Source of the DNA: Bacteroides sp. ET71
GTDB taxonomy: Bacteria; Bacteroidota; Bacteroidia; Bacteroidales; Bacteroidaceae
Assembly: GCF_023336905.1 (NCBI RefSeq)
Contig: NZ_JAMBLS010000025.1
Span: 1-50,130 of the forward strand
Length of the DNA: 50,130 nt
Direction: 5' to 3'
Part shown: positions 37,499 through 50,130 of the stretch, in pieces
Layout: each line of letters opens with the position of its first letter
How positions within the stretch are numbered: the stretch's first letter is position 1
Program-made: the position numbers and the translations under genes
The notes under the pieces: generated by a model
Told to the model about the DNA's origin: nothing
The model's database searches: none
What the model saw: the letters and a program-made list of their open reading frames with translations, nothing else

Positions 37499-38344
37499 TT
37501 ATTCGTTAAGTTGTTTTTCCAGTTGCTTCAGTTCTTCTTGTCCTTCCCGGGCTATGACACGCACGTCGTCCACTTTGCCGAAATCCGTAGCCAATTTGAT
37601 TTTCAGTAAATAAGACAATCCGTCGTGCGAGTCGGACATTTCGTCGATAACCCCCACCAACAGTCCGGGCGGGAACACGGCCGAATAACCGCTGGTCACC
37701 ACCGTGTCGCCCACGCTGAACTCGGCATGGCGGGGCAGGTCGCGCAGGTAAGCATACTGCGTGTCTCCGCCTTCCCACTTCAGGTAGCCGAAGTAATTGC
37801 TGCCTTGAATCTTGCAACTCAAGCTCGATTTGCTGTTCAGCAGCGAAATGACCAGCGCATAGTGGGGAGTGGTCTTGTAGACAATGCCCACCACGCCGTT
37901 GGCATTGACCACCCCCATTTCCGGGCGTATGCTGTCGGCCGAACCGCGGTCCAGAGTCAGGTAGTTGTCCAAGTGGTTCACACTGTTCTTGACCACGTGA
38001 GCCTTATACAGTTTGTAGCTTCTGTCCGCAGGGATGGAGTCGAGGCTGTGGTAAGCACTTGTATCAGACTGCATGTCAAGCAACTCTTTTTCCAGAGAGG
38101 CTATGCGTTGTTCTAACTGCATGTTACGGTCCAGCAAATCTTCATTGACCTCTTTCAAGTGGAAGAAGGAAGTGACACTGCTTTTCATCTCGAACAACTT
38201 GCCGGATATGGCATTGGTCGAGGTGAAGAACACGCTTTGCTGGTAACGGTTGAAGCGGAATAATAAAACAAAACTGGCTACCTCCAGCAAGATGAAGAGG
38301 AACCAGTAATTGTATTTTACCAGAAAATCCAGCAGATTCCGCAT
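37499..38344 (-). CDS. mreC: Rod shape-determining protein MreC
   Basis: 281 aa. One N-terminal membrane helix (WFLFILLEVASFVLLF), a coiled coil (about 65-95; LDRNMQLEQRIASLEKELLDMQ), then the beta-barrel domain with VVKNSVNHLDNYLTLDRGSADSI and GVVGIVYKTTPHYALVISLLNS. It scaffolds PBP2 in the periplasm. 12 nt downstream of mreB. Confidence 0.95.
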   Translation of the reverse strand: MRNLLDFLVKYNYWFLFILLEVASFVLLFRFNRYQQSVFFTSTNAISGKLFEMKSSVTSFFHLKEVNEDLLDRNMQLEQRIASLEKELLDMQSDTSAYHSLDSIPADRSYKLYKAHVVKNSVNHLDNYLTLDRGSADSIRPEMGVVNANGVVGIVYKTTPHYALVISLLNSKSSLSCKIQGSNYFGYLKWEGGDTQYAYLRDLPRHAEFSVGDTVVTSGYSAVFPPGLLVGVIDEMSDSHDGLSYLLKIKLATDFGKVDDVRVIAREGQEELKQLEKQLNE

Positions 38345-38356
38345 ACGCCGTCGCCG

Positions 38357-39379
38357 TTATCTCATTAAGAACGAGAACTTGTCCACATTCTTCAGCGCGA
38401 TGCCTGTGCCTTTGGCCACTGCATGCAGCGGGTCTTCTGCTATGTGGAACGGTATGTTTATCTTGTCCGTCAGACGCTTGTCCAATCCGCGCAGCAAAGC
38501 GCCTCCACCGGCCAGGTAGATGCCGTTGTGCACAATGTCTGCATACAGCTCGGGCGGAGTGTTCTCCAAAGCACTCAGCACGGCCGTTTCTATCTTCGAG
38601 ATGGACTTTTCCAGACAGTGGGCTATTTCCTGGTAGCATACGGGCACTTCCATGGGCAACGCAGTGATACGGTTCGGACCATATACGATATAGTCGTCCG
38701 GGGCATCCTCGCCCAATTCGGTCAGTGCGGCGCCCACGTGTATCTTGATACGTTCGGCCATACGCTCGCTGACCTTCACGTTGTGCTGCCGGCTCATGTA
38801 TTCTTGTATGTCGGCCGTCAAGTCGTCGCCTGCGATGCGGATAGAGTTGTTGCTCACGATACCTCCCAGCGAGATGACCGCAATCTCTGTCGAACCGCCA
38901 CCTATGTCCACAATCATGTTGCCTTCCGGCGCTTCTACATCTATGCCGATGCCTATGGCGGCCGCCATGGGCTCGAAAATCAGGTATACATCACGTCCGC
39001 CCGCATGTTCGGCCGAGTCGCGCACGGCACGCAGCTCTACCTCCGTACTGCCCGACGGCACTCCGATGACCATCCGCAAGGAGGGAGAGAACAGCCGGTG
39101 CTTGCGGTTCACCATTTTCACCAGTCCGCGAATCATCTGCTCGCAGGCATAGAAATCGGCTATCACGCCGTTGCGCAAGGGACGGATGGTGCGGATGTTC
39201 TCATGAGTCTTTTCGTGCATCATCTTCGCCTTTTCGCCCACGGCAATCATTTTGTCCGTGCGGCGGTCCAAGGCCACTACCGACGGCTCATCCACTACAA
39301 TCTTGTCGTTGCAGGTGATGATGGTGTTGGCCGTCCCCAGGTCCATCGCTATTTCTTGTGTAAAAGAGAATAAACCCAT
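38357..39379 (-). CDS. mreB: Rod shape-determining actin homologue MreB
   Basis: 340 aa cytoskeletal ATPase. It begins MGLFSFTQEIAMDLGTANT (phosphate loop 1), with IVDIGGGSTEIAVISLGGI (phosphate 2) and GIYLAGGGALLRGLDKRL (adenosine motif). First of the elongasome run; transcription may come from purH across the repeat-filled 268-nt gap, since no clear -7 box is seen just upstream. Confidence 0.97.
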   Translation of the reverse strand: MGLFSFTQEIAMDLGTANTIITCNDKIVVDEPSVVALDRRTDKMIAVGEKAKMMHEKTHENIRTIRPLRNGVIADFYACEQMIRGLVKMVNRKHRLFSPSLRMVIGVPSGSTEVELRAVRDSAEHAGGRDVYLIFEPMAAAIGIGIDVEAPEGNMIVDIGGGSTEIAVISLGGIVSNNSIRIAGDDLTADIQEYMSRQHNVKVSERMAERIKIHVGAALTELGEDAPDDYIVYGPNRITALPMEVPVCYQEIAHCLEKSISKIETAVLSALENTPPELYADIVHNGIYLAGGGALLRGLDKRLTDKINIPFHIAEDPLHAVAKGTGIALKNVDKFSFLMR

Positions 39380-39382
39380 TTT

Positions 39383-39645
39383 AAATTGAGAATTGAAAAT
39401 TGAAAATTAGGAACTGAGAATTGAAAATTGAGAATTAGAAAATGGGAGATTGCGTGACATCTTAGGTCCTGTTTAAAAATCGCTCTCTCTGTCATGTTGA
39501 GCAAGCGAAGCGTAGTCGAAGCATCTCCCTACTACTTCTCAGGCGCATAGTGAGATCTCCCGACTGTGTTCGGGATGACAGGAAAATGGATCTTAAACAG
39601 GCTCTTACTCTCATTTTTTAATTCTCAATTCTCAAATTTTCATTT
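39383..39645. repeat. AT-rich inverted repeats around a dispersed element
   Basis: The left side (39383-39446) has several GAGAATTGAAAATTG units; the right side (39607-39645) has the opposite, AATTCTCAATTCTCAAATTTTC. The dispersed element at 39469-39601 lies between them. Confidence 0.7.
39468..39601. repeat. Dispersed repeat, copy 1, with inverted ends
   Basis: The ends are CCTGTTTAA and TTAAACAGG. Inside, TGTCATGTTGAGCAAGCGAA near the left faces CGGGATGACAGG near the right. The first 78 nt (39469-39546) match 41653-41730 at 73 positions without gaps. Confidence 0.8.
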
Positions 39646-39647
39646 AT

Positions 39648-41171
39648 TTAGTGTTTGAAGTGGCGGAATCCGGTGGTCACCATCGCGATACCGTGTTCGT
39701 TGCAGTAGTCAAAGCTCAGTTGGTCCTTGATGCTTCCACCCGGCTGGATGACCGCCGTAATGCCTTCCTTGCCGGCAATCTCTACGCAGTCGGGGAAGGG
39801 GAAGAAAGCATCGCTTGCCATGACAGCCCCGTGCAGGTCGAAGCCGAAGCTCTTGGCTTTTTCGATGGCCTGTTTCAGCGCATCTACCCGGCTGGTCTGT
39901 CCGACGCCGCTGGCCAGCAATTGCTTACCCTTGGCCAGCACGATGGCATTGGATTTGGAGTTCTTCACTATCTTGTTGGCAAAAAGCATGTCTTCTGTCT
40001 CGGCCTGCGTGGGCGCCTTTGTCGTGACTGTTTTCAGGTCTTCGGGTGTTTCCACCTTCAGGTCGCGTTCCTGCGCCAGCACACCGTTCAGCAGAGAGCG
40101 GAACTGTTTTTTAGGCAGCTCGACCGGTTTGCGCACCAGGATGATGCGGTTCTTCTTCTGTCCCAGCACCTCGAGGGCGTCAACGTCATAATCCGGCGCG
40201 ATGATGACCTCAAAGAAGATATTATTGATTTCTTCGGCCGTTTCTTTGTCTACCACTGCGTTGGTGATGAGCACCCCTCCGAAAGCCGAAACCGGGTCAC
40301 CGGCCAGGGCGTCTTTCCATGCCTCCAGCACGGTGGGGCGCGAAGCCAGGCCGCAGGCATTGTTATGCTTCAAGATGGCGAACGTCGTTTCCTGAAATTC
40401 GTCAATCAGGTCTACCGCCGCATTGATGTCCAGCAGGTTGTTGTAAGAGATTTCCTTGCCATGTATCTGGTCGAACATCTGCTCCAGATTGCCGTAGAAA
40501 TAGCCCTTCTGATGCGGATTCTCGCCGTAGCGCAACGCCTTCTGGTTGTTGGCCGAGCAGCGGAAGGCCGTTCCTTCTCCTCCGTCGAAATAGTTGAAGA
40601 TGGCCGTGTCATAGTGCGACGACACGCCGAAAGCCTCTTTGGCAAACCAACGGCGTTCTTCCAGCGTCGTGTTGGCACCACGTTCCATCAGGATGTCGCG
40701 CAAGGGCTGATACTGGGCTTGCGAGGCCACGATGACCACGTCGTTGTAATTTTTGGCAGCGGCGCGGATGAGCGAGATGCCGCCTATGTCAATTTTCTCG
40801 ATGATGTCGGCCTCCGATGCGCCGCTGGCCACTGTTGCCTCGAACGGATACAGGTCGACGATGACCAAGTCTATTTCGGGAATCTGGTATTTTTCAATCT
40901 GCTGACGGTCCTGCTCCAAAGCACGGCGGCACAAGATGCCTCCGAAAATTTTGGGATGCAGCGTCTTCACCCGCCCGCCCAAGATGGAAGGGTAGGTAGT
41001 CAGGTCTTCCACTGCCTGGCAGGGATAGCCCAACGATTCGATAAACTGGCGGGTGCCGCCTGTGGAGAGAAACTGCACGCCTTCTTCATGCAGTTTGGTG
41101 ATGATTTCGTTCAGTCCTTCTTTGTGATAGACGGAAACCAGCGCTGTCTTGATTCTTTTTGTCTCGGACAT
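39648..41171 (-). CDS. purH: Bifunctional AICAR formyltransferase / IMP cyclohydrolase
   Basis: Last two steps of purine synthesis. Start MSETKRIKTALVSVYHKEG at 41171; longer readings would begin upstream of the promoter. The N-terminal IMP cyclohydrolase domain (FLSTGGTRQFIESLGYP; GGRVKTLHPKIFGGIL) is followed by the formyltransferase domain (RYGENPHQKGYFYG; LKHNNACGLA; SDAFFPFPDCVE; QPGGSIKDQ). 507 aa, complete. It is the first gene of the - strand run that leads into mreB. Confidence 0.97.
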   Translation of the reverse strand: MSETKRIKTALVSVYHKEGLNEIITKLHEEGVQFLSTGGTRQFIESLGYPCQAVEDLTTYPSILGGRVKTLHPKIFGGILCRRALEQDRQQIEKYQIPEIDLVIVDLYPFEATVASGASEADIIEKIDIGGISLIRAAAKNYNDVVIVASQAQYQPLRDILMERGANTTLEERRWFAKEAFGVSSHYDTAIFNYFDGGEGTAFRCSANNQKALRYGENPHQKGYFYGNLEQMFDQIHGKEISYNNLLDINAAVDLIDEFQETTFAILKHNNACGLASRPTVLEAWKDALAGDPVSAFGGVLITNAVVDKETAEEINNIFFEVIIAPDYDVDALEVLGQKKNRIILVRKPVELPKKQFRSLLNGVLAQERDLKVETPEDLKTVTTKAPTQAETEDMLFANKIVKNSKSNAIVLAKGKQLLASGVGQTSRVDALKQAIEKAKSFGFDLHGAVMASDAFFPFPDCVEIAGKEGITAVIQPGGSIKDQLSFDYCNEHGIAMVTTGFRHFKH

Positions 41172-41217
41172 GATTCTAATGTTGTTATATAAGTACGCGT
41201 ATTTTATAATAGTCCCG

Positions 41218-41225
41218 CAAAGGTA
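41218..41225 (-). promoter_or_regulatory. -7 box of purH
   Basis: TACCTTTG on the - strand, 47 nt before the start codon. No PurR-type operator recognised. Confidence 0.6.
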
Positions 41226-41435
41226 CGAATTTTGTCGGTTAGCCCGCATAGGAAAAAGCGTTAAAATTGGAGGCGGGTGGAAAGTTTGTGGCATTGGCAG
41301 CCTGGCGCGGGGTGCAAATGGGGTGTGTCGCTGGGTGAAGGCCGGGGTATGTTTCAGAAAGATGAGGCGTCGTGAGATTGTCTGTCTGTTTTGAGAATAA
41401 TATGCTTGCGAGTAAAATATCTGTATGATTATTGC

Positions 41436-41528
41436 TACCAAAGTCGTTCCAGATTCGTCTTTTGTTCGTTTCTAAGCACTCGAACTTGGTACGACTTTGG
41501 AACGACTTTGGTAGGAATTTGGTCGGGG
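41436..41528. repeat. 11-bp repeat cluster with inverted arm, copy B
   Basis: ACCAAAGTCGTTCCA (41437-41451) is the exact reverse complement of 41498-41512. On the right, units TTGGTACGACT, TTGGAACGACT and TTGGTAGGAAT follow one another every 11 bp from 41487. The whole matches copy A (5665-5755) in reverse orientation, including the spacer with TTCGTTTCTA and ACTCGAACTT. Confidence 0.8.
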
Positions 41529-41884: not shown

Positions 41885-42110
41885 GGTGCAAAGCGTTGCC
41901 TTCAAACCTTTTTGTGAGATAAAAAATTGTAAGAAGCGTTGTGCTTCATTCTTGTTCTTGAGAACCTGAGAAATTTTCAAAACGTACGAGAATGGCACAG
42001 TCGGTTCCTACGCTGGTTTCCAGCGTGAGTCTGCTGTCTATTATCATTTGTGTAATCAGGTTTTCTCAGGATCTTCAAGAACGATGAATAGCACGCAGTT
42101 CCACGCTTGA
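41885..42110 (+). ncRNA. Long-stem structured RNA, 6S-like architecture
   Basis: Downstream of the strong promoter the sequence folds into one long interrupted helix. GTGC (41941-41944) pairs with 42091-42094, TTCAT (41945-41949) with 42084-42088, GTTCTTGA (41954-41961) with 42075-42082, and CCTGAGAAA (41965-41973) with 42062-42070. An open central bubble follows, and the apex is ACGCTGG-TTT-CCAGCGT (42010-42026). A long closing stem, central bubble and terminal hairpin in about 220 nt is the layout of 6S RNA, the RNA polymerase decoy. The ends are approximate and no terminator is clear. The 6S identity is inference; a structured RNA is well supported. Confidence 0.55.
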
Positions 42111-42262
42111 ACCGAGAATGATTATATACTAATCTGATAATCAATTTATATATTAGTTATTTGATACCGTATAGTTCCCATATTCTGTCGGTTTCCCAAA
42201 GGTTATTATTATTTTGCTCCACTGTCTAATAAAAGCTCTTCATTTTGAGGTATGATGTTAAT

Positions 42263-42301
42263 GTTCGCCAAAAGGTTGGTTAGCACAACCCATTGGCGAA
42301 C
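42263..42301. other. Isolated strong hairpin
   Basis: GTTCGCCAA (42263-42271) pairs with TTGGCGAAC (42293-42301), then a 2-by-2 internal loop, then GGTTG (42274-42278) with CAACC (42286-42290) and a 7-nt loop GTTAGCA. There is no T-run, so it is not an ordinary terminator. Confidence 0.6.
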
Positions 42302-42365
42302 TATGATAACCCTAACTTAATGTACTCGGTTCATGATCGGGGTATTAAGCCGCAAAGCATTCTAT

Positions 42366-42398
42366 AATGTCCGATTTTCTTTAAGAATTTCGGACATT
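42366..42398. promoter_or_regulatory. Inverted repeat just upstream of the abiE promoter
   Basis: AATGTCCGA (42366-42374) and TCGGACATT (42390-42398) flank a 15-nt loop. It could be an operator for the antitoxin, which in the AbiE family represses its own promoter, or a terminator for upstream RNA since TTTT follows. Confidence 0.5.
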
Positions 42399-42424
42399 TT
42401 ATTGCTACATCAAGAGTAATATCG

Positions 42425-42432
42425 TATCTTTG
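42425..42432 (+). promoter_or_regulatory. -7 box of the abiE-type operon
   Basis: TATCTTTG, 20 nt before the ATG at 42453, leaving a very short leader. Confidence 0.65.
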
Positions 42433-42452
42433 CAACTAGAATCATTGTGGAT

Positions 42453-43043
42453 ATGAAGACGATACTGACGAAGGAAATACGAAACATTATAAACCGAAAC
42501 GGACCGAACAGGCTTTATATGGTGAGCGATTTTGCCCATCTGAATAATGACGGGCTAGTTACTCGTGCGCTTTCCCGATTAGAGAAAGAGGGTGTGCTCA
42601 TTCGTCTTTCTCAAGGTCTATATTTATGTCCATTACGGAATAAGTTCGGTGTACTTCGTCCCTCTATAGAAGATATCGCATACGCCATAGCGGAAAAGGA
42701 TAAGGCTCGTATTATACCTAGTGGATTGACAGCATTGAACAAATTGGGACTTTCCACACAGGTCACGATGAATGCAGTCTATTTGACAGATGCCACAGCA
42801 AGGGAACTTACTATCGGGAACCGTAAAATCATATTCAAGCGCAGCGCACCTCGCAATTTTGCCTACAAGACAGACCTGTTTCCACTTATAGTCGCTGCCA
42901 TGAAAGAATTAGGGAAAGATAACGTGACAGATGAACAGGTTGCAATCATAAAACAAGCCATTGAAAAATATGGTAGTCCTGATGAAATCAAATACGATTA
43001 CAGCATTGCCCCGCAATGGATTAAACAAAGACTTGCATTATGA
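42453..43043 (+). CDS. AbiEi-type antitoxin (DUF6088-like transcription regulator)
   Basis: 196 aa from the ATG at 42453 (an in-frame GTG lies 6 nt earlier). The N-terminal winged helix (YMVSDFAHLNNDGLVTRALSRLEKEGVLIRLSQGLYLCP) is the DNA-binding part. The C-terminal domain includes IIPSGLTALNKLGLSTQV and YLTDATARELTIG, typical of AbiEi and DUF6088 proteins. In type IV toxin-antitoxin systems it counteracts the nucleotidyltransferase toxin and represses the operon. It overlaps the toxin gene by 4 nt (ATGA). The base composition is clearly more AT-rich than the core genes before it. Confidence 0.88.
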   Translation: MKTILTKEIRNIINRNGPNRLYMVSDFAHLNNDGLVTRALSRLEKEGVLIRLSQGLYLCPLRNKFGVLRPSIEDIAYAIAEKDKARIIPSGLTALNKLGLSTQVTMNAVYLTDATARELTIGNRKIIFKRSAPRNFAYKTDLFPLIVAAMKELGKDNVTDEQVAIIKQAIEKYGSPDEIKYDYSIAPQWIKQRLAL

Positions 43044-44053
43044 ATTTTACTAAGCTTACAAAAGAAGAACAACTTACCATTTTGGCTAATGTAGCCGAAG
43101 AGAAAGGGATTGTGGACAATGCCGTAGAAAAGGACTACTGGGTCAGTATGGTGTTGCGTGCCATATTTTCTTTGCCGTATGCAGCAGCTTTTGTTTTCAA
43201 GGGAGGAACAAGCCTTAGCAAAGGTTGGGGATTAATAGAACGGTTTTCGGAAGATATTGACCTTGCAATAGATCCCCAATATCTCGGTTTCACAAATATT
43301 GAGACTAAAAGTCAACGGACTAAGTTGCGGAAAGACTCCAAGAAGTTCATAGATGGCACTTTTGCGCTTGACGTAGAGAACAGATTAAAAGAGTATGATC
43401 TTTCAGAGTGTTGTAAAGTCATAGTTCCGGAGACGTCTGTCAGCGACCTTGACCCTGTAGTCCTGTTTGTCGAGTATAATTCAGTGCTGCAAACGAAAAT
43501 GCAATATATACCGGAGCGAGTCAAAGTTGAGATAAGTTGTCGTTCTCTCATGGAACCGTCGGAACAGATAGAAATGCGTTCTATGATAGAAGATGCCTAT
43601 CCGGATGAAGATTTTTCATTGCCGATATTTGCAGTCCCCACAGTAGTGCCAGGACGGACATTCTTGGAAAAGGTTTTTCTTTTGCATGAAGAGTTTAACC
43701 GTCCCAATGGCTGTACGCATATCGAACGTATCACACGACACATGTATGACATTGTAAAGATGATGGATAAACCGTTTGCAATGGAAGCAATGCAAAATGT
43801 ACAACTATATGAAGACATTGTGGCTCATCGCAATAAGTTTACGGCATGGAGCGGACTGGATTACACAACACATCTTCCGCATACAATATCATTTCTTCCT
43901 CCTGAAAGCATTGAAGAGGCTTTGCGGGACGACTATAAGCAGATGCAAATCGGCTTTATTTATGCTAATGCGCCCTCGTTTGATGAGATTATGGAGCAGT
44001 TGCATGAGTTGCAGGACAGATTCAGGGCATTGGAATGGAAAAATAATCGTTGA
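43040..44053 (+). CDS. AbiEii/AbiGii-type nucleotidyltransferase toxin
   Basis: 337 aa. The nucleotidyltransferase signature FKGGTSLSKGWGLIERFSEDIDLAI has GGTS at 55-58, Lys61 and SEDIDL at 70-75. Later VKVEISCRSL and a helical C-terminal half complete the family pattern. Members transfer nucleotides to tRNA or other targets and arrest growth, giving phage defence or plasmid stability. All motif I acidic residues are present, so it is probably active. Three nt after its stop a tiny ORF begins. Confidence 0.9.
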   Translation: MNFTKLTKEEQLTILANVAEEKGIVDNAVEKDYWVSMVLRAIFSLPYAAAFVFKGGTSLSKGWGLIERFSEDIDLAIDPQYLGFTNIETKSQRTKLRKDSKKFIDGTFALDVENRLKEYDLSECCKVIVPETSVSDLDPVVLFVEYNSVLQTKMQYIPERVKVEISCRSLMEPSEQIEMRSMIEDAYPDEDFSLPIFAVPTVVPGRTFLEKVFLLHEEFNRPNGCTHIERITRHMYDIVKMMDKPFAMEAMQNVQLYEDIVAHRNKFTAWSGLDYTTHLPHTISFLPPESIEEALRDDYKQMQIGFIYANAPSFDEIMEQLHELQDRFRALEWKNNR

Positions 44054-44056
44054 CGT

Positions 44057-44116
44057 ATGGCATACATTAATGTTGATATAAACGAAACTGAGATATTCAT
44101 TAACTATCTTGCATAA
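44057..44116 (+). other. Tiny ORF 1, 19 codons, after the toxin gene
   Basis: Begins M-A-Y-I-N-V-D-I-N-E-T-E and stops at 44114-44116, three nt after the toxin gene. Its stop codon shares a base with the next ATG. It may be a translated leader peptide, a coupling device, or the remnant of a decayed gene. Confidence 0.3.
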
Positions 44117-44175
44117 TGTATGGATTAAATCCAATTGAGGAAGAATTGCAAAATTTTATAATTAGAAATAATTAA
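44116..44175 (+). other. Tiny ORF 2, 19 codons, before the NERD gene
   Basis: Begins M-Y-G-L-N-P-I-E-E-E-L-Q and ends 6 nt before the NERD gene start. With ORF 1 it fills the gap between toxin and NERD genes almost exactly. Confidence 0.3.
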
Positions 44176-44181
44176 GGTCTT

Positions 44182-47115
44182 ATGGCGTTAGAGGTTTTAC
44201 ATCAGCAGGCAGCAACGCACGAGAATGAGCAATTCCGCCGCGTGGTCAAGATAGTAGATGCCGCGTTCAAAAAGCACAATTACGATGGCATTCTTATTGG
44301 TAATCCATTTAATGAGAAATATCGGCGCTTTCGTGCAGATGCGATTCTCTTTTTCAATCATGGAGTGATAATTATTGACTTCAAAGACTATTCGGGTCAA
44401 CTGATTATTCCACGGGGCGATGATGAATTTAAGAGTTATCCTTGGTATGCAGAAAAAGTATCGGACTGCCAGAATATAGAGGTTAAGGCAGGTGCCCATT
44501 TCTTGAATCCGTTTCTCCAGCTTGTTTCATATAGAAACGCATTCAGAGAAATCGTTGAGCATAATCCAATTCTCGGGCAAAAAATCAATCCATCCCGGGT
44601 GTGCATAGCAAATATCTTTTCAGGACCGCTTAAGCTCAGCAATAAGGTTCCGGGGAAATATCCTTATTATAAGATTGTACAAGAATCGGAGATAGGGGCC
44701 TTGCTTTATGATTTGAATAATGATAATGCTTTCGATGAAGAGATAGCCAAGGCGATTAAAAGCATCTTCCCATCCGATGAATATATTCAAGACTATTCAT
44801 TTGATACGGGGGTGATTTGCAAGCAAGACATCATTGTCGGGAAAGGGGCAAAATCTACTATCGATACCTTTATGCAAACAGAGGGCAACGACCTTCTTGT
44901 CTTAACGTCGATGGATGCAGAAGAACGGGATAATTGGGCAAAATACATTTTTTCTATTGCAGATAATTACAGAATTCCTGAAATTCAAGGACTTTGTCAT
45001 TCAAATAGAATTAGCCGCCGGTTGGGACAGCGCGGGATAGAGGCTTCCAGCCTTTACTCATTCATGTACGGAGGGAACGAGACATCCGAAGATGAAGAAG
45101 ACGATGAGGCCATGCAGGTTATTCCCATCCGTTCGGATGCCGGATTGGATGAGCGAGCATTGTTAATGGTGTATGATGCGCATCTTGTAAGCCGCAGCCT
45201 CTCTCAATCAGATTTGCTTCGCTTTGGAACAGGGCGTTTGCTTGAGGACTTCATCGCCTTTGCCAATCCGGCATCTGAGCGGAAAATCGTTTTCATCGGT
45301 GACCCTTATATGCTATCTTTCGGCTCTTCCGACGATTCTGCTATCAATGTGGCTAATCTTCAAACTATCTGCGAGGATAGGGTTATTCATTACTATCATC
45401 AGCCGGCCTGCGATTCACATGAGTCCTGCAAGGAGTCTCTAAAATGTAGTCTCGCCAAGAGTATGGATGCACAGCTGTTCAACAACTTGAATTATGCCTT
45501 TGATGACGGGTCTATCGTTGAGATCAGGAAAGATGCGATTACCGGCAAAATGAAAGAATGGTTTATGGCTCCATTGCAGCAAGAACCTAAGCAGTCGGTC
45601 CTGTTTTTCAAGAAAAGCGACTGTCTGAAAACCAATCTTTGGGTTAAGCATCATTGTTTGAATAATGGGAAGGAACTTGCAGCAGGCGACCTTCTTATTG
45701 CCAATAATAATATCTATATCCCTGATGAGACCGGGTTTGGTAATCCCAAAAGAGTGCTGAACGGGATGTATTTTACTGTAAAGGATGTGCTTGAGAAGCA
45801 TAGTGAAACAATCTCCATTAAGGCTTATCCTCGTCCAATGTTTCTGTCTTTTACAAAAATATCTGTTAAATGTTTGAGCCTAAGTGGGCAGGATGCCGAA
45901 ATTTGGGTACTTGACAATTATTTGGATTGTTCAGATGAATTGACTAAGGAGGAACAGATTGCAGTTAATGTCTTCATTAATCGTCGTATTACTGAACGAA
46001 AGAAGTCGTCACCATTTGCCAAGACTGAATTTTATAGTCAGTTACTATCTGATGCGGACTATCAAGCCCTCTCTAATGATGAGAAAGAAGCGATAGAAAA
46101 CATTATTCAAAACCGTTCTGTCCAGAAAGAAGATAGGGTACCGGTCAAAACAACGAAAGTGGCCCGTTCATTACTCAAATGTTATTATGATAGGTACGAG
46201 AGTGACATTCAACGGTCTTCCCGTGAGAACGATCCGCTTATCAATGTAATGTATGCGAAATATGCATGGGCTATAACTGTTCATAAGGCTGTCGGCTCCG
46301 AATTTGACAATGTCATCTTGAAAGGATTCCGCACGGAGAATGACGGAATATGCAATGAGTCTTATTTCAGATGGCTATACAGTGGGCTCTGTGTTACGGC
46401 AGGAGTATTCTATATTGCACAACCGCAATATGTCCATCCATTTATGAATTGTACCGTGAGCGAAACAGATTCAGGTGTTAACCCACCGAAGCAATTGCTT
46501 ATATATGATGGGTATAAAGTGCCATCCCGTTTTTCCGATATGGTTCTTAATAACGTCAATGCGTCAGCTGCTATTTGTGAATTGGCAAAGCTTATCGAAC
46601 CAAGCGGTTATATCTTGGAGGTGGTCAAACCGTGCAATGATTATTTGACCAAGGCCGTATTTTCAGTACCACAAGGGATAAAAAAGAAATTGGTAATTGA
46701 TATTCATAACAAGGGTGCTAAGGATTCTTATGGTATCTCGGCAATTAGAATGGAGCCGAATGAGTTAGTTGATGCCACCTGTATTGAGCAGTTCATCGAC
46801 ACAGTCTTCTCCCAGGCTGTGTCATATAATAAATCTGTGGATACTCCTGATTATATTTTGGAAGTCGTTAAGGTATTTGGTGAGCAGATGAAAGAGCGGG
46901 GATTCAAGCTTGAGGTAGTGTCCAGTAAAGATTATCAGATTGTCTGCAAGGTTACATCTGATAACGGCAACGCTATGCTCCGCCTATGGTATGGAACCAG
47001 CTTGGAAAGCCATAGCAAAGGGTTTATCAACAAAATTGAGATGTTCGACGTTACTGATACCACCATTGCAAGTGAGGTGCGGGAAATGATTGTATTTAAA
47101 TCAACAAAACTATAA
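44182..47115 (+). CDS. NERD nuclease fused to a degenerate superfamily 1 helicase
   Basis: 977 aa. The N-terminal nuclease domain (about 15-130) has FRADAILFFNHGVIIIDFKDYSG with Asp53, Asp66 and Lys68, a plausible PD-(D/E)XK site. The rest aligns by eye with RecD/Dda-like helicases, but the NTPase motifs look lost. The Walker A position (about 240-255) reads LTSMDAEERDNW instead of a G-x-G-K-T loop. Motif II is YDAHLVSR (331-338) instead of DEAS. Motif III is GDPYMLSF (373-380) without the Gln. Motif V is TVHKAVGSEFDN (699-710) with Val for Gln, and motif VI is RWLYSGLCVTAG (730-741) without the arginine of TRA. It is not frameshifted. Probably DNA or RNA binding without ATP hydrolysis. The 14-nt gap to the next gene implies an operon. 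Confidence 0.8.
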   Translation: MALEVLHQQAATHENEQFRRVVKIVDAAFKKHNYDGILIGNPFNEKYRRFRADAILFFNHGVIIIDFKDYSGQLIIPRGDDEFKSYPWYAEKVSDCQNIEVKAGAHFLNPFLQLVSYRNAFREIVEHNPILGQKINPSRVCIANIFSGPLKLSNKVPGKYPYYKIVQESEIGALLYDLNNDNAFDEEIAKAIKSIFPSDEYIQDYSFDTGVICKQDIIVGKGAKSTIDTFMQTEGNDLLVLTSMDAEERDNWAKYIFSIADNYRIPEIQGLCHSNRISRRLGQRGIEASSLYSFMYGGNETSEDEEDDEAMQVIPIRSDAGLDERALLMVYDAHLVSRSLSQSDLLRFGTGRLLEDFIAFANPASERKIVFIGDPYMLSFGSSDDSAINVANLQTICEDRVIHYYHQPACDSHESCKESLKCSLAKSMDAQLFNNLNYAFDDGSIVEIRKDAITGKMKEWFMAPLQQEPKQSVLFFKKSDCLKTNLWVKHHCLNNGKELAAGDLLIANNNIYIPDETGFGNPKRVLNGMYFTVKDVLEKHSETISIKAYPRPMFLSFTKISVKCLSLSGQDAEIWVLDNYLDCSDELTKEEQIAVNVFINRRITERKKSSPFAKTEFYSQLLSDADYQALSNDEKEAIENIIQNRSVQKEDRVPVKTTKVARSLLKCYYDRYESDIQRSSRENDPLINVMYAKYAWAITVHKAVGSEFDNVILKGFRTENDGICNESYFRWLYSGLCVTAGVFYIAQPQYVHPFMNCTVSETDSGVNPPKQLLIYDGYKVPSRFSDMVLNNVNASAAICELAKLIEPSGYILEVVKPCNDYLTKAVFSVPQGIKKKLVIDIHNKGAKDSYGISAIRMEPNELVDATCIEQFIDTVFSQAVSYNKSVDTPDYILEVVKVFGEQMKERGFKLEVVSSKDYQIVCKVTSDNGNAMLRLWYGTSLESHSKGFINKIEMFDVTDTTIASEVREMIVFKSTKL

Positions 47116-47129
47116 TTTAGACAGTAAAA

Positions 47130-49730
47130 ATGGCAAAGTTTAGTTCTCATAATAAGAATGATTACTCCCCTCGCATATCAACTAAAATCTATGCTCTCCG
47201 TCGCGATGGTTTATTGGATGATGCCAGACAACTGGCTGAAGATTATCTTCAAAAAAACAGAACAGATATAGATGTTCTGAAAGCCTATGCTTGGACATTG
47301 ATTGATATCTGCAAAAGGGAGCAACAGAAAGGAAATATTGTAGATGCGCGAAAAATTTCAGCTCTTCTGTCGCGTATGCACTTCGAGACCCAATTCGATG
47401 AGTTTGCGGAAATGCTTGTTAGAAAAATACAAGCACTTAGACTAATGGTGAATCCTTTCTACGCTCAGATTCAAGAAGCTAAAGAATTGAGTCAGAAAGG
47501 CAACAATGATAAAGCATGGGGGATTCTTACCCAATTGTCAGTAGACGGAAATCTTCCTGAAGAAGCGCATGAAAGCTATGGATGGGCAATATACCGTTAT
47601 TTGCGAGATCACATTGCACAACTTGATTCAATACAGGTGCGGACGCAACTGAAGAACTATATTTACCTTCATAATGAGCGCCCTTCGATGCTGCATTCCC
47701 AAATATTGAACTTCGCCCTTAATTACTCTAAACAAGATGGCAATTTCAAACTCATATCGTTTCTCAAGTTATGGAATCCGAACAATTTGCGACTGGATGA
47801 TTTTGAAGATTCACGTAGCAACGAAGGCAAAACCATTCCATCGTTGATGTCGAGAATTGCAAAGGCTATTGTTGATTATCCTTTAGATGAGATTCAAGAA
47901 TTTGTTAGGCTTATCCCCTATAGGAAAGACGATTTTATCGAAATGATAAAAAACCATTTCTTCTGGAAACTGTATCATAGTACTGAGGACGGTGTTTCTT
48001 CATCTACATGGGAGCTGTTTAACCAATATATAGAGTTATCCAATGATACTCCGGCCTCTACTTCTCATTCGAAAGTTCTTGGGTTAGCCGAGCGCACAAT
48101 GAAGGAAAACAATGCATGGCGATTCTATGATTTTTTTAGAGGGTGGAACCCAGAGAAACTAAGAACAGCTGACTGGCAAGAAGAGAAAGGAGATAATGGG
48201 GAAACCTATAAACCGTTAGCTGTCAAATCGCTGAAAAGAATAAAAGAAGCTCTTGAGAATCTTTCTGATGAACAACTAGGAGACCTCCAATGGCTTATTG
48301 ACCTCTATGGAATAGCCATAGAGAAGATACCGGATGATGATTGGAATATCAGGTCGAAAGCGTTACTTCATCTGCGCGCTGGTCAGCAAGCAGAAGCAAA
48401 GGATATCTATAAAAAGCTTTGCCAGAAGATGGGAGAGAAATACTACATCTGGAGTGAATTTGCCGATTGTTGGGAAGATGTGGATGTAAAGATTGCTTTT
48501 CTTTGCAAAGCTCTAAGCTTAGAGAAGAATGAAGACTTCATAGGGAAGATACGAATGGAATTGGCTCAACAACTAATTAAATCCAAGAAATATGCAAATG
48601 CAGTAGTTGAACTTGACCAATATAAGAAACACTATGCTGAAAAGGGCTGGTGTATTGATTCAGAAGTGGATGCTCTTCTTGAGCAATGCTCCTCGGTTAC
48701 TCCTGCATCTGACAATAATGCGGCACTTTATGCCGAAAATATCTCAAGAGCGGAAGAATACGCTTACGAAGATATTTCTTTCACGGAAGTTGTACTTGTG
48801 GACAAATGGAAAAACGGGAACGGAAAGACCATGATAGTTTTTGTCGACGGTAAAGCAATTGAATTTGCTACCGATAAGAAGAGATTTCCAGGGCTAAACG
48901 ATAGTCATAAAGGACAAGTTTGGAAATTCAAATTGTATAAAGACGAAACAATCCGAACCATTCCCGGTGATTATCCATGGCAGCAGCCCAAGAAAGAAGC
49001 AGTAATCAAATATATTCCTTTGACTGCCATTCCCTCAGAAACGGCAGATTGGTTTAATTTGCCGATTCAATATGGCTATGTTCAGTATATAAACACAGAG
49101 AAAAAGGTCTATCATATTTATTTGACCGATTCAACACTCGTTTATGAGCACTATGAGCGGAAGGAACTTGAAAAAGGAGATTTTGTCAAACTGCGCCAAT
49201 ACAAAAAGAAAGTCAAGGAAGAGAGCAAGACTTTCTTATGTAACATACAAAAGTGTGCTGAGGATGAAGCTATTGAGAAGTTCAAGTGTAGGATTGCAGC
49301 AGTAGATGATGTCAATAATCAGCGTAAACTATTCCATTTTGTATTAGGTACCAAACAGGCTTCGGGTATTCTGCACTATGATCAGACGGATTTGCGTCCA
49401 TCCGTTGGTGATTGCATTAAGATTCATTATTTTGTCAAGGAAATCAGTGACAAGAAGAATCCGGGTAAGCAAAAGAAATTAGTGGAAGTGCTTAGGGCAG
49501 AGTTGACTGACGGGAGTAATAGTGACTTAGTAAAACGCTTCTCCGGTAATTTGGAACTCAAATATAAAGATAGGTATGATGGAGAAGAACCAGATTTTGC
49601 ATTTATTGGTGATTACTATGTCCATAAAACTATACTGGAAAAATATAACATTACTTCCAATTGTTATGTGAATGCGAAAGCAGTCTATACCGGAGATGGT
49701 AATTGGAAAGTGTATGAAATTGAGAAATGA
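47130..49730 (+). CDS. Large helical-repeat and OB-like protein, partner of the NERD protein
   Basis: 866 aa; I do not recognise a named function. The first 110 residues look like TPR helices (LRRDGLLDDARQLAEDYLQKN). The middle contains an internal duplication with a 124-residue spacing: FLKLWNPNNLRLDDF (211-225) and FFRGWNPEKLRTADW (335-349). More TPR-like helices run 405-500 (LRAGQQAEAKDIYKKL). From about 545 to the end the chain is beta-rich, in three or four blocks like OB or S1 domains (FKCRIAAVDDVNNQRKLFHFVLG; DFAFIGDYYVHKTIL ... GNWKVYEIEK). No membrane or signal segments. Its AT-rich composition matches the neighbouring genes. A scaffold that binds nucleic acid for the NERD protein is inference. 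Confidence 0.7.
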   Translation: MAKFSSHNKNDYSPRISTKIYALRRDGLLDDARQLAEDYLQKNRTDIDVLKAYAWTLIDICKREQQKGNIVDARKISALLSRMHFETQFDEFAEMLVRKIQALRLMVNPFYAQIQEAKELSQKGNNDKAWGILTQLSVDGNLPEEAHESYGWAIYRYLRDHIAQLDSIQVRTQLKNYIYLHNERPSMLHSQILNFALNYSKQDGNFKLISFLKLWNPNNLRLDDFEDSRSNEGKTIPSLMSRIAKAIVDYPLDEIQEFVRLIPYRKDDFIEMIKNHFFWKLYHSTEDGVSSSTWELFNQYIELSNDTPASTSHSKVLGLAERTMKENNAWRFYDFFRGWNPEKLRTADWQEEKGDNGETYKPLAVKSLKRIKEALENLSDEQLGDLQWLIDLYGIAIEKIPDDDWNIRSKALLHLRAGQQAEAKDIYKKLCQKMGEKYYIWSEFADCWEDVDVKIAFLCKALSLEKNEDFIGKIRMELAQQLIKSKKYANAVVELDQYKKHYAEKGWCIDSEVDALLEQCSSVTPASDNNAALYAENISRAEEYAYEDISFTEVVLVDKWKNGNGKTMIVFVDGKAIEFATDKKRFPGLNDSHKGQVWKFKLYKDETIRTIPGDYPWQQPKKEAVIKYIPLTAIPSETADWFNLPIQYGYVQYINTEKKVYHIYLTDSTLVYEHYERKELEKGDFVKLRQYKKKVKEESKTFLCNIQKCAEDEAIEKFKCRIAAVDDVNNQRKLFHFVLGTKQASGILHYDQTDLRPSVGDCIKIHYFVKEISDKKNPGKQKKLVEVLRAELTDGSNSDLVKRFSGNLELKYKDRYDGEEPDFAFIGDYYVHKTILEKYNITSNCYVNAKAVYTGDGNWKVYEIEK

Positions 49731-49778
49731 TATTATTTATGTAAGTTCGATGAAAACAATTAAAACAAAATCGATTGA

Positions 49779-50130
49779 TTATAAGCATTTAGAGATCCAC
49801 ACCTGTCCAAAGCAATCATAGGTTTTTAGGGAAGAAACAATAAGTAGATAGGGCCGGAAATCTTCATTGGAGCGGTTTACTTCCTTTTGTATATTCTCAA
49901 GGCAGGTCGCAAATATGCTCTCATTTTTGAAAAGCCGTACATCCATAAACCAAAACGCTCCATATTTTAAAGAGAAGCATTGAATGATTCGTGTGCGTAA
50001 GGCAATTTCAATGTCTTGAATGGATGTGAAAACTAACGTCCTTAGCTTTTTGTCAAACTGATACAACTCAATAACATCATCAAAGTTGCTGTTAGGGAGG
50101 AACTGATGCTTATCAGAGTTCGGAACTTCC
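49779..50130 (-). pseudogene. Truncated Abi family (AbiD/AbiF, HEPN-like) gene at the window edge
   Basis: The frame is open from the window edge to a stop at 49779. It carries FDDVIELYQFDKKLRTLVFTSIQDIEIALRTRIIQCFSLKYGAFWF, the core of Abi family abortive-infection proteins. The match fades after NEDF, where family members continue for roughly another 100 residues, and the chain ends after about 30 unrelated residues. The N-terminal part is outside the window, and no start codon can be chosen. A frameshift near 49850 or a real truncation are both possible. It converges on the helical-repeat gene. Confidence 0.7.

Follow-up and report, generated by a model that had tools for sequence, protein, structure and literature searches.

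The TOTE gene pair and its helicase motifs

The 50,130-nucleotide stretch of DNA analysed here, from the gut bacterium Bacteroides sp. ET71 (contig NZ_JAMBLS010000025.1; the window) contains two adjoining genes, the first of which encodes a NERD nuclease joined to a superfamily 1 (SF1) helicase core that lacks its motor motifs. The window protein belongs to a pseudo-helicase clade with L063, L064, L066, L067 and L077, the last being a near copy of it. The clade is compared below with seven active NERD-helicases, its sisters (L032, L034, L047, L065, L073, L074 and L075, which is a near copy of L034), and with helicase-only relatives. The reading frame is exact and unbroken from the ATG at 44182 to the stop codon ending at 47115. 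The features of the gene pair are as follows.

44182..47115, forward strand: TOTE effector, 977 amino acids (aa), with a NERD nuclease, a motor-dead SF1 helicase core and a C-terminal region like the TBP part of the sisters
44182..44781, forward strand: NERD (PD-(D/E)xK) nuclease region, residues 1-200, with E14, D53, D66 and K68 kept (Pfam NERD at residues 33-127; motif table)
44782..46491, forward strand: pseudo-helicase core, residues 201-770 (hhalign to sisters and helicase-only relatives; dN/dS against L063)
44902..44940, forward strand: former motif I (Walker A), LTSMDAEERDNWA, with G243S, K249R and T/S250D relative to the sisters (motif table, site conservation)
45172..45198, forward strand: former motif II, YDAHLVSRS replacing DES[HQ]LxSD, residue 332 still acidic (motif table, site conservation)
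45292..45324, forward strand: motif III region, FIGDPYMLSFG, with Met in place of Gln (L066 and L067 have Ser; motif table)
46267..46302, forward strand: motif V region, WAITVHKAVGSE, with Thr, His and Lys kept and Gln missing as in all seven NERD sisters (motif table)
46363..46413, forward strand: former motif VI, with YFRWLYSG kept and the next stretch, where the Arg is lost, variable (0 of 9 sites invariant; motif table)
46492..47112, forward strand: C-terminal region, a weak match to the TBP-TOTE-bearing C-terminus of the sisters, without a direct Pfam match (hhalign)
47130..49730, forward strand: partner gene, 866 aa, with TPR, DUF7017, S1CSD-TOTE-1 and a sub-cut-off S1CSD-TOTE-2 (Pfam) and a match to PDC-M16B (PADLOC)

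Pfam recognised NERD (PF08378, residues 33-127; 21.6 bits against a cut-off of 22.1, 3.3e-4) and UvrD_C_2 (PF13538, residues 694-735; 25.2 against 27.4 bits) in the effector slightly below threshold. PADLOC assigned it to PDC-M16A (PDLC04474 at 1.6e-61, best stretch 12-626; PDLC04472, stretch 290-942), and four clade mates match PDLC04474 at 3e-57 to 5e-63, which makes them members of the same family. The catalytic residues D53, D66 and K68 are kept in all 13 NERD rows of the motif table. Pfam detected TBP-TOTE in neither the window protein nor four clade mates; it lies near the C-terminus of all five NERD sisters scanned and of L036, the one helicase-only relative scanned. The TOTE label of the helicase-only relatives comes from profile matches. 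Sequence searches of the PDB returned short or weak matches only, such as one of about 150 residues between Dda helicase and the profile of the sisters.

The partner starts 14 bp downstream of the effector and matches DUF7017 (2.7e-24), S1CSD-TOTE-1 (5.5e-17), TPR_14 (above cut-off) and PDC-M16B (1.3e-99). The acronym TOTE is explained in PMC12458937, with reference to Aravind et al. 2022, as TPR, OB, TBP and Effector, and a TPR partner with an S1/CSD (OB-fold) domain does adjoin the effector here. The domains of the partner, the PDC-M16A/B matches and the presence of TBP-TOTE in the sisters therefore identify the gene pair as a TOTE (PDC-M16) conflict system. The original prediction, made from the sequence alone, had presented the protein as a new NERD-RecD/Dda-type defence effector; it belongs instead to a TOTE system, as the effector paired with a dedicated TPR-S1/CSD protein. 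The TOTE family is already a defence candidate. No NERD pseudo-helicase was described in the open literature searched, coverage of which was incomplete and did not extend to the 2022 TOTE review, and the PADLOC server paper (PMC9252829) leaves PDC unmentioned.

A TPR partner adjoins the effector in all six clade members. By BLASTP the window partner is 79% identical to that of L063, 70% to that of L064 and 44% to that of L066, and 36-41% identical over long stretches to the partners of the active L065 (split into two open reading frames, ORFs) and L074, the effectors of the pseudo and active groups being 27-28% identical to one another. The same search found no match to the partners of L067, L032, L034, L073 or L075; the L067 partner is a differently built TPR plus S1 protein. 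The C-terminus of the L066 partner resembles a frameshift or an assembly error. A promoter scan did no better than shuffled sequence (23 found, 22.6 expected).

The window protein aligns by BLASTP with all seven active NERD-helicases from residue 10-13 to residue 765-800 (27-28% identity, E 1e-69 to 1e-78). An hhalign comparison of five pseudo-helicase rows gave a probability of 100 both against the seven sisters (E 1.2e-95, 937 columns) and against nine helicase-only relatives (E 5.1e-45, 634 columns), so that homology to SF1 helicases extends along the core; the sequence profiles point to a preserved SF1 fold. These alignments place LTSMDAEERDNW opposite GxxxxGK[ST], YDAHLVSR opposite DES[HQ]LxSD, GDPYMLSFG opposite GDxxQL and YSGLCVTAG opposite YT-x3-RA. 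A separate alignment to 11 viral-contig helicases, made without the NERD sisters as bridges, placed all five motifs identically. Since the profile and BLASTP alignments agree on these positions, the motif placement of the original prediction is right, as are its lengthwise alignment to NERD-type SF1 helicases, its intact 977-codon frame and its view that Asp53, Asp66 and Lys68 look usable. The alternative P-loop that it had allowed for near residues 217-226 did not materialise: the GKGAKS found there is not conserved, relatives having GEEAKF, GEEAKT, DIEVEK or DTNVET. A P-loop elsewhere was also rejected, the pattern G/A-x4-GK[ST] occurring in none of the six clade proteins and not in the window's partner, and open frames in six genomes exclude a sequencing or frame error as the cause of the motif loss.

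The six clade members share LTSM or LESM-x4-RDxW at motif I, [YHT][DE]AHLVSRS at motif II, GDPY[MS]L at motif III, HK[AC][VI]GS at motif V and a YSG motif VI without Arg. The seven sisters have a Walker A of the GT-x3-GK[ST] type, [VI]DES[HQ] at motif II and YT-x3-RA at motif VI, and ten helicase-only relatives have the canonical G-x-AG[TS]GKT P-loop, DEAS, GD-x2-QLPP, HKAQGGE and a motif VI with Arg. Walker A, the Walker B Asp and the motif VI Arg are thus lost in 6/6 clade members, none of which has the signature of an active SF1 helicase, and kept in 7/7 sisters. Walker A is intact in 19 of the 20 helicase-only relatives that could be assessed, four of which (L089, L090, L091 and L093) are closely related to one another; the exception is L045, and L038 went unscored, since the start called for its ORF lies downstream of motif I. 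Outside these counts, 39 of 41 ORFs for Dda-type helicases of about 470 aa, chosen by their motif V pattern, have a P-loop, and the remaining two were called from a later Met.

It had been claimed that every motif is lost. This stands for motif I, Asp331 of motif II and the Arg of motif VI, which are the losses specific to the clade. The motif V Gln is also absent from all seven sisters, where Walker A is intact, and the motif III Gln from one of them (L047), so neither marks inactivation, and the missing motif V Gln was rejected as a sign of it.

A single motorless clade and the constraint upon it

The five distinct pseudo-helicase rows (L077 was left out of the tree and of the invariant-site counts) form one clade with support of 100/100. 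The seven NERD sisters stand next to it with 100/99, and the fork that unites both against the helicase-only forms has support of 87/82. By BLASTP, identity to the window protein is 86%, 73%, 45% and 40% in the remaining four rows. All frames in the clade are open over 977-993 codons, and in L067 the match extends past the stop codon, making its C-terminus slightly shorter. The motif losses are therefore common to one monophyletic group reaching down to 40% identity.

Clade members were found in six genomes from five families of the window's order. A search of that order matched 10 of 393 genomes (five pseudo-helicases, one active NERD form and four helicase-only forms), a search of the class 5 of 395 (the window and four active NERD forms) and a search of the family 2 of 301 (the window and Phocaeicola coprophilus). 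The phylum search (395 genomes) had at least three further full-length NERD forms among the matches listed, all of those active. Searches around four other members (98, 100, 7 and 10 genomes) yielded nothing beyond the member itself, and one of 42 genomes around L073 yielded that genome only. A single scan of genome contigs returned one locus, L031; scans of viral contigs with query alignments A2, A3 and A4 returned no relatives, and none of 63 records from a plasmid search covered 80% of the query. A phage origin was rejected, with no PHROGs family matched and two records of a phage collection covering 6% of the protein.

The ratio of nonsynonymous to synonymous substitution (dN/dS) was computed by the Nei-Gojobori method with our own script for the window protein and L063, the closest pair. 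It was 0.175 overall, 0.09 in NERD, 0.21 in the helicase core and 0.22 in the C-terminus. In the core, 160 of 570 sites are invariant in the five clade members, and conservation exceeds this background in former motif II (7/9 sites), motif III (8/11), motif V (9/12) and the left part of motif VI (7/8). The stretch that follows motif II (residues 340-360) has 13 of 21 sites invariant. The former Arg stretch, residues 736-744, has none of nine and is free to vary. The clade has kept the motif III GD and the motif V T-x-H-K, along with a large part of the core around them. Across the protein, 42 sites are fixed within each group and differ between them when the five pseudo-helicase rows are compared with six active ones (the sisters minus L075), and at former active-motif sites the group-fixed replacements include K249R, G243S, L252W and D338R. 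This site pattern fits altered function rather than drift. Shared, monophyletic loss of the motor together with a constrained frame and sequence argues for a maintained pseudo-helicase and not for one decayed gene. The inference of selection for a non-motor form, already made in the original prediction, gains support as far as maintenance is concerned from the depth of the clade, its open frames and the dN/dS of the core; the nucleic-acid sensing and control of the nuclease that it also suggested are putative.

Several points weigh against the view that this is a TOTE effector with a maintained, motorless core. Synonymous divergence (dS) is uneven along the window/L063 pair (NERD 0.67, core 0.31), and the remaining clade pairs are close to saturation or have reached it, which leaves a single pair for which constraint is well measured. 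The P values for the four conserved motif stretches (0.0008-0.003) are uncorrected for the seven stretches tested, and former motif I, with 6 of 13 sites invariant, does not rise above the core background (P 0.13). Residue 332 is acidic still, and the Q motif may be kept: one alignment puts a Gln opposite that of the sisters in four of the five distinct rows, the window included, and others put Gly220 there. Retention of a RecA-like fold is suggested by sequence profiles alone, assignment of the C-terminus to TBP is weak (hhalign against the C-terminus of the sisters: probability 81, E 1.2e-5), and the ORF of the L066 partner ends early, at 480 aa (L085:1651-3090, reverse strand).

The transferred block, its neighbours and a second degenerate effector

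The TOTE pair lies beside an AbiE pair on a block with the following features.

42100..49825, no strand: laterally transferred block with the AbiE pair and the TOTE pair (identity to P. coprophilus An818, GC profile)
42447..43043, forward strand: AbiEi-type antitoxin (DUF6088), same block (Pfam, PADLOC)
43040..44053, forward strand: AbiEii nucleotidyltransferase toxin, same block (Pfam, PADLOC)

The block is 99.5% identical over 7736 bp to a segment at a different chromosomal site in P. coprophilus An818 (L031:3909-11644), a member of another genus in the window's family (Bacteroidales, Bacteroidaceae; NCBI taxonomy), and identity between the two genera is 99.7% over 5.9 kb. Between the two hosts htpG is only 70% identical, and 1-kb windows of the block have a GC content of 0.36-0.44, compared with 0.51-0.56 across 38000-41499. 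The disparity with htpG and the GC contrast indicate recent lateral transfer. No integrase or transposase was recognised among the block genes, and no ORF of at least 80 aa on the block, the partner included, has the P-loop pattern. The L031 copy sits between htpG-like and dehydrogenase-like genes (named by eye). A reading frame at 49779-50066 (reverse strand), which we take to be Abi_2-like, spans the right edge of the block and has only about its last 47 bases in common with L031.

Among the neighbours scanned for other clade members, those near L063 are a CAP12-type TIR effector, Mrr and DUF1016, and those near L066 (in L085) are an AAA_5 ATPase, an integrase and a gene without a family; the single neighbour scanned for L067 has no family. 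No ATPase of the kind found near L066 occurs among the three neighbours near L063 and the one near L067. The TIR effector, Mrr, DUF1016 and the integrase form a context usual for defence genes; an anti-phage role of the TOTE pair is putative.

The exceptional helicase-only relative, L045 (415-2757, reverse strand), is a TOTE effector without NERD that has GAFSTGKR, VES and a Cys for the motif VI Arg, with a TPR-like neighbour of its own (by eye). Its branch is very long (3.0) and lies outside the pseudo-helicase clade, a hint of independent motor loss, and such loss may recur in the TOTE family. A search of another 113 genomes from the order of L045 found no relative at E 1e-40. Its TOTE pair (L136:2351-7725) lies between an intact gene, presumably thiL-like, and a shorter second copy of that gene's 5' part, as if insertion of the pair had duplicated part of the flanking gene. 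The viral-collection contigs L089, L090, L091 and L093 encode TOTE-type helicases with about 180-205 additional N-terminal aa, their P-loop lying at 217-244 compared with 38 in L036.

A possible role for a helicase core without its motor

Helicase-nuclease defence is usually explained through motor-driven processing of foreign DNA. On balance we judge it somewhat probable that the window protein is a TOTE effector whose maintained pseudo-helicase acts as an ATP-independent clamp gating the NERD nuclease, by analogy with RecC and AddB. The RecA-like core would survive as a putative nucleic-acid-binding clamp that does not translocate and would present a strand to the predicted NERD nuclease or withhold it. 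Invading DNA or RNA would be recognised by the TPR-S1/CSD partner and the C-terminal part of the effector, which would thereby permit cleavage, and the invader could be degraded locally or the cell could respond by suicide, with no ATP spent. This reading is favoured by the two-gene TOTE architecture, the shared motif loss, the single clade and the constraint, and also by the 99.5% block shared between genera, the TPR partner in all six members and the want of a P-loop on the block. A bolder version, which we advance tentatively and hold to be somewhat short of probable, is that a TOTE lineage has dropped its motor and now uses the SF1 core as a nucleic-acid checkpoint that gates the fused NERD without ATP, a defence counterpart of RecC with no motor encoded alongside.

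The analogy comes from the literature. Passages of PMC4824097 describe helicase-like domains in RecC and AddB that lack most or all of the characteristic motifs and were apparently co-opted as scanners at the equivalent of the single-stranded DNA track, and those from PMC1185551 describe inactivated helicase domains in RecC and a shift to Chi recognition. As far as these passages go, RecC and the N-terminal domain of AddB resemble the proposed clamp in having an SF1 fold without motor motifs that reads a strand within a nuclease complex, but they belong to DNA-repair complexes with active motor subunits, whereas none of the ORFs of at least 80 aa on the window block has a P-loop. The pseudohelicase Utp25 likewise has a helicase fold with dispensable catalytic motifs, although it is a eukaryotic DEAD-box relative with a role in ribosome assembly, according to the abstract of PMC9539457. 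TALON systems, as presented in excerpts of PMC12458937, also combine a NERD nuclease with TPR-CSD and TBP proteins, but their helicase is YprA-like (ARMADA-like) and that of the window is of the SF1 type. Closer to hand, TOTE (PDC-M16A/B) systems have the same two adjoining genes, a partner with S1CSD-TOTE, TPR and DUF7017 and an effector that matches the PDC-M16A models; the window effector differs from them in lacking the helicase ATP-site motifs and in a TBP-TOTE that Pfam does not detect. The NERD-helicases with intact motors share its domain order, 27-28% identity and the NERD catalytic residues, but retain Walker A, DES[HQ] and the motif VI Arg.

It is unlikely, though worth weighing, that the dead core is a structural remnant that does no more than set the geometry of NERD and the C-terminus and dock the TPR partner, with no binding or sensing of nucleic acid. 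The strong conservation of residues 340-360 and of the left flank of motif VI is compatible with a docking surface, and a homologous partner is retained in most motorless systems. Against this, 20 columns are invariant over one pseudo-helicase row, three active NERD rows and four helicase-only rows, and the Gly-Asp of motif III and the Thr and His of motif V belong to them, and such motif III and V residues contact nucleic acid in SF1B helicases. We regard as improbable a cryptic NTPase in which nucleotide is bound or hydrolysed through replaced residues (Arg for the Walker Lys, D/E332, a possible Q motif): residue 332 is acidic and residue 249 basic, as Arg, in all six rows, and Gln may occupy the place of the Q motif in four of the five distinct rows, but Gly243, Gly248, Lys249, Thr/Ser250, Asp331 and the motif VI Arg have been lost together in every member. 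That the helicase is merely drifting in a decaying gene, its ORF persisting through the recent spread of the block (99.7% identity over 5.9 kb in two genera), is very improbable given that relatives as distant as 40% identity have identical losses, that their frames are open over 977-993 codons and that dN/dS, where measurable, is well below 1.

The findings on the motorless effector suggest that systems of a known class, presumed to defend against phage, are able to function with their engine missing. A conserved lineage that has no motor, but whose nuclease is of the same type and whose sensor partner is homologous, splits recognition from translocation within one family, so that whether TOTE immunity needs ATP becomes a testable matter, and it adds a candidate case from bacterial defence to the short list of maintained pseudo-helicases.

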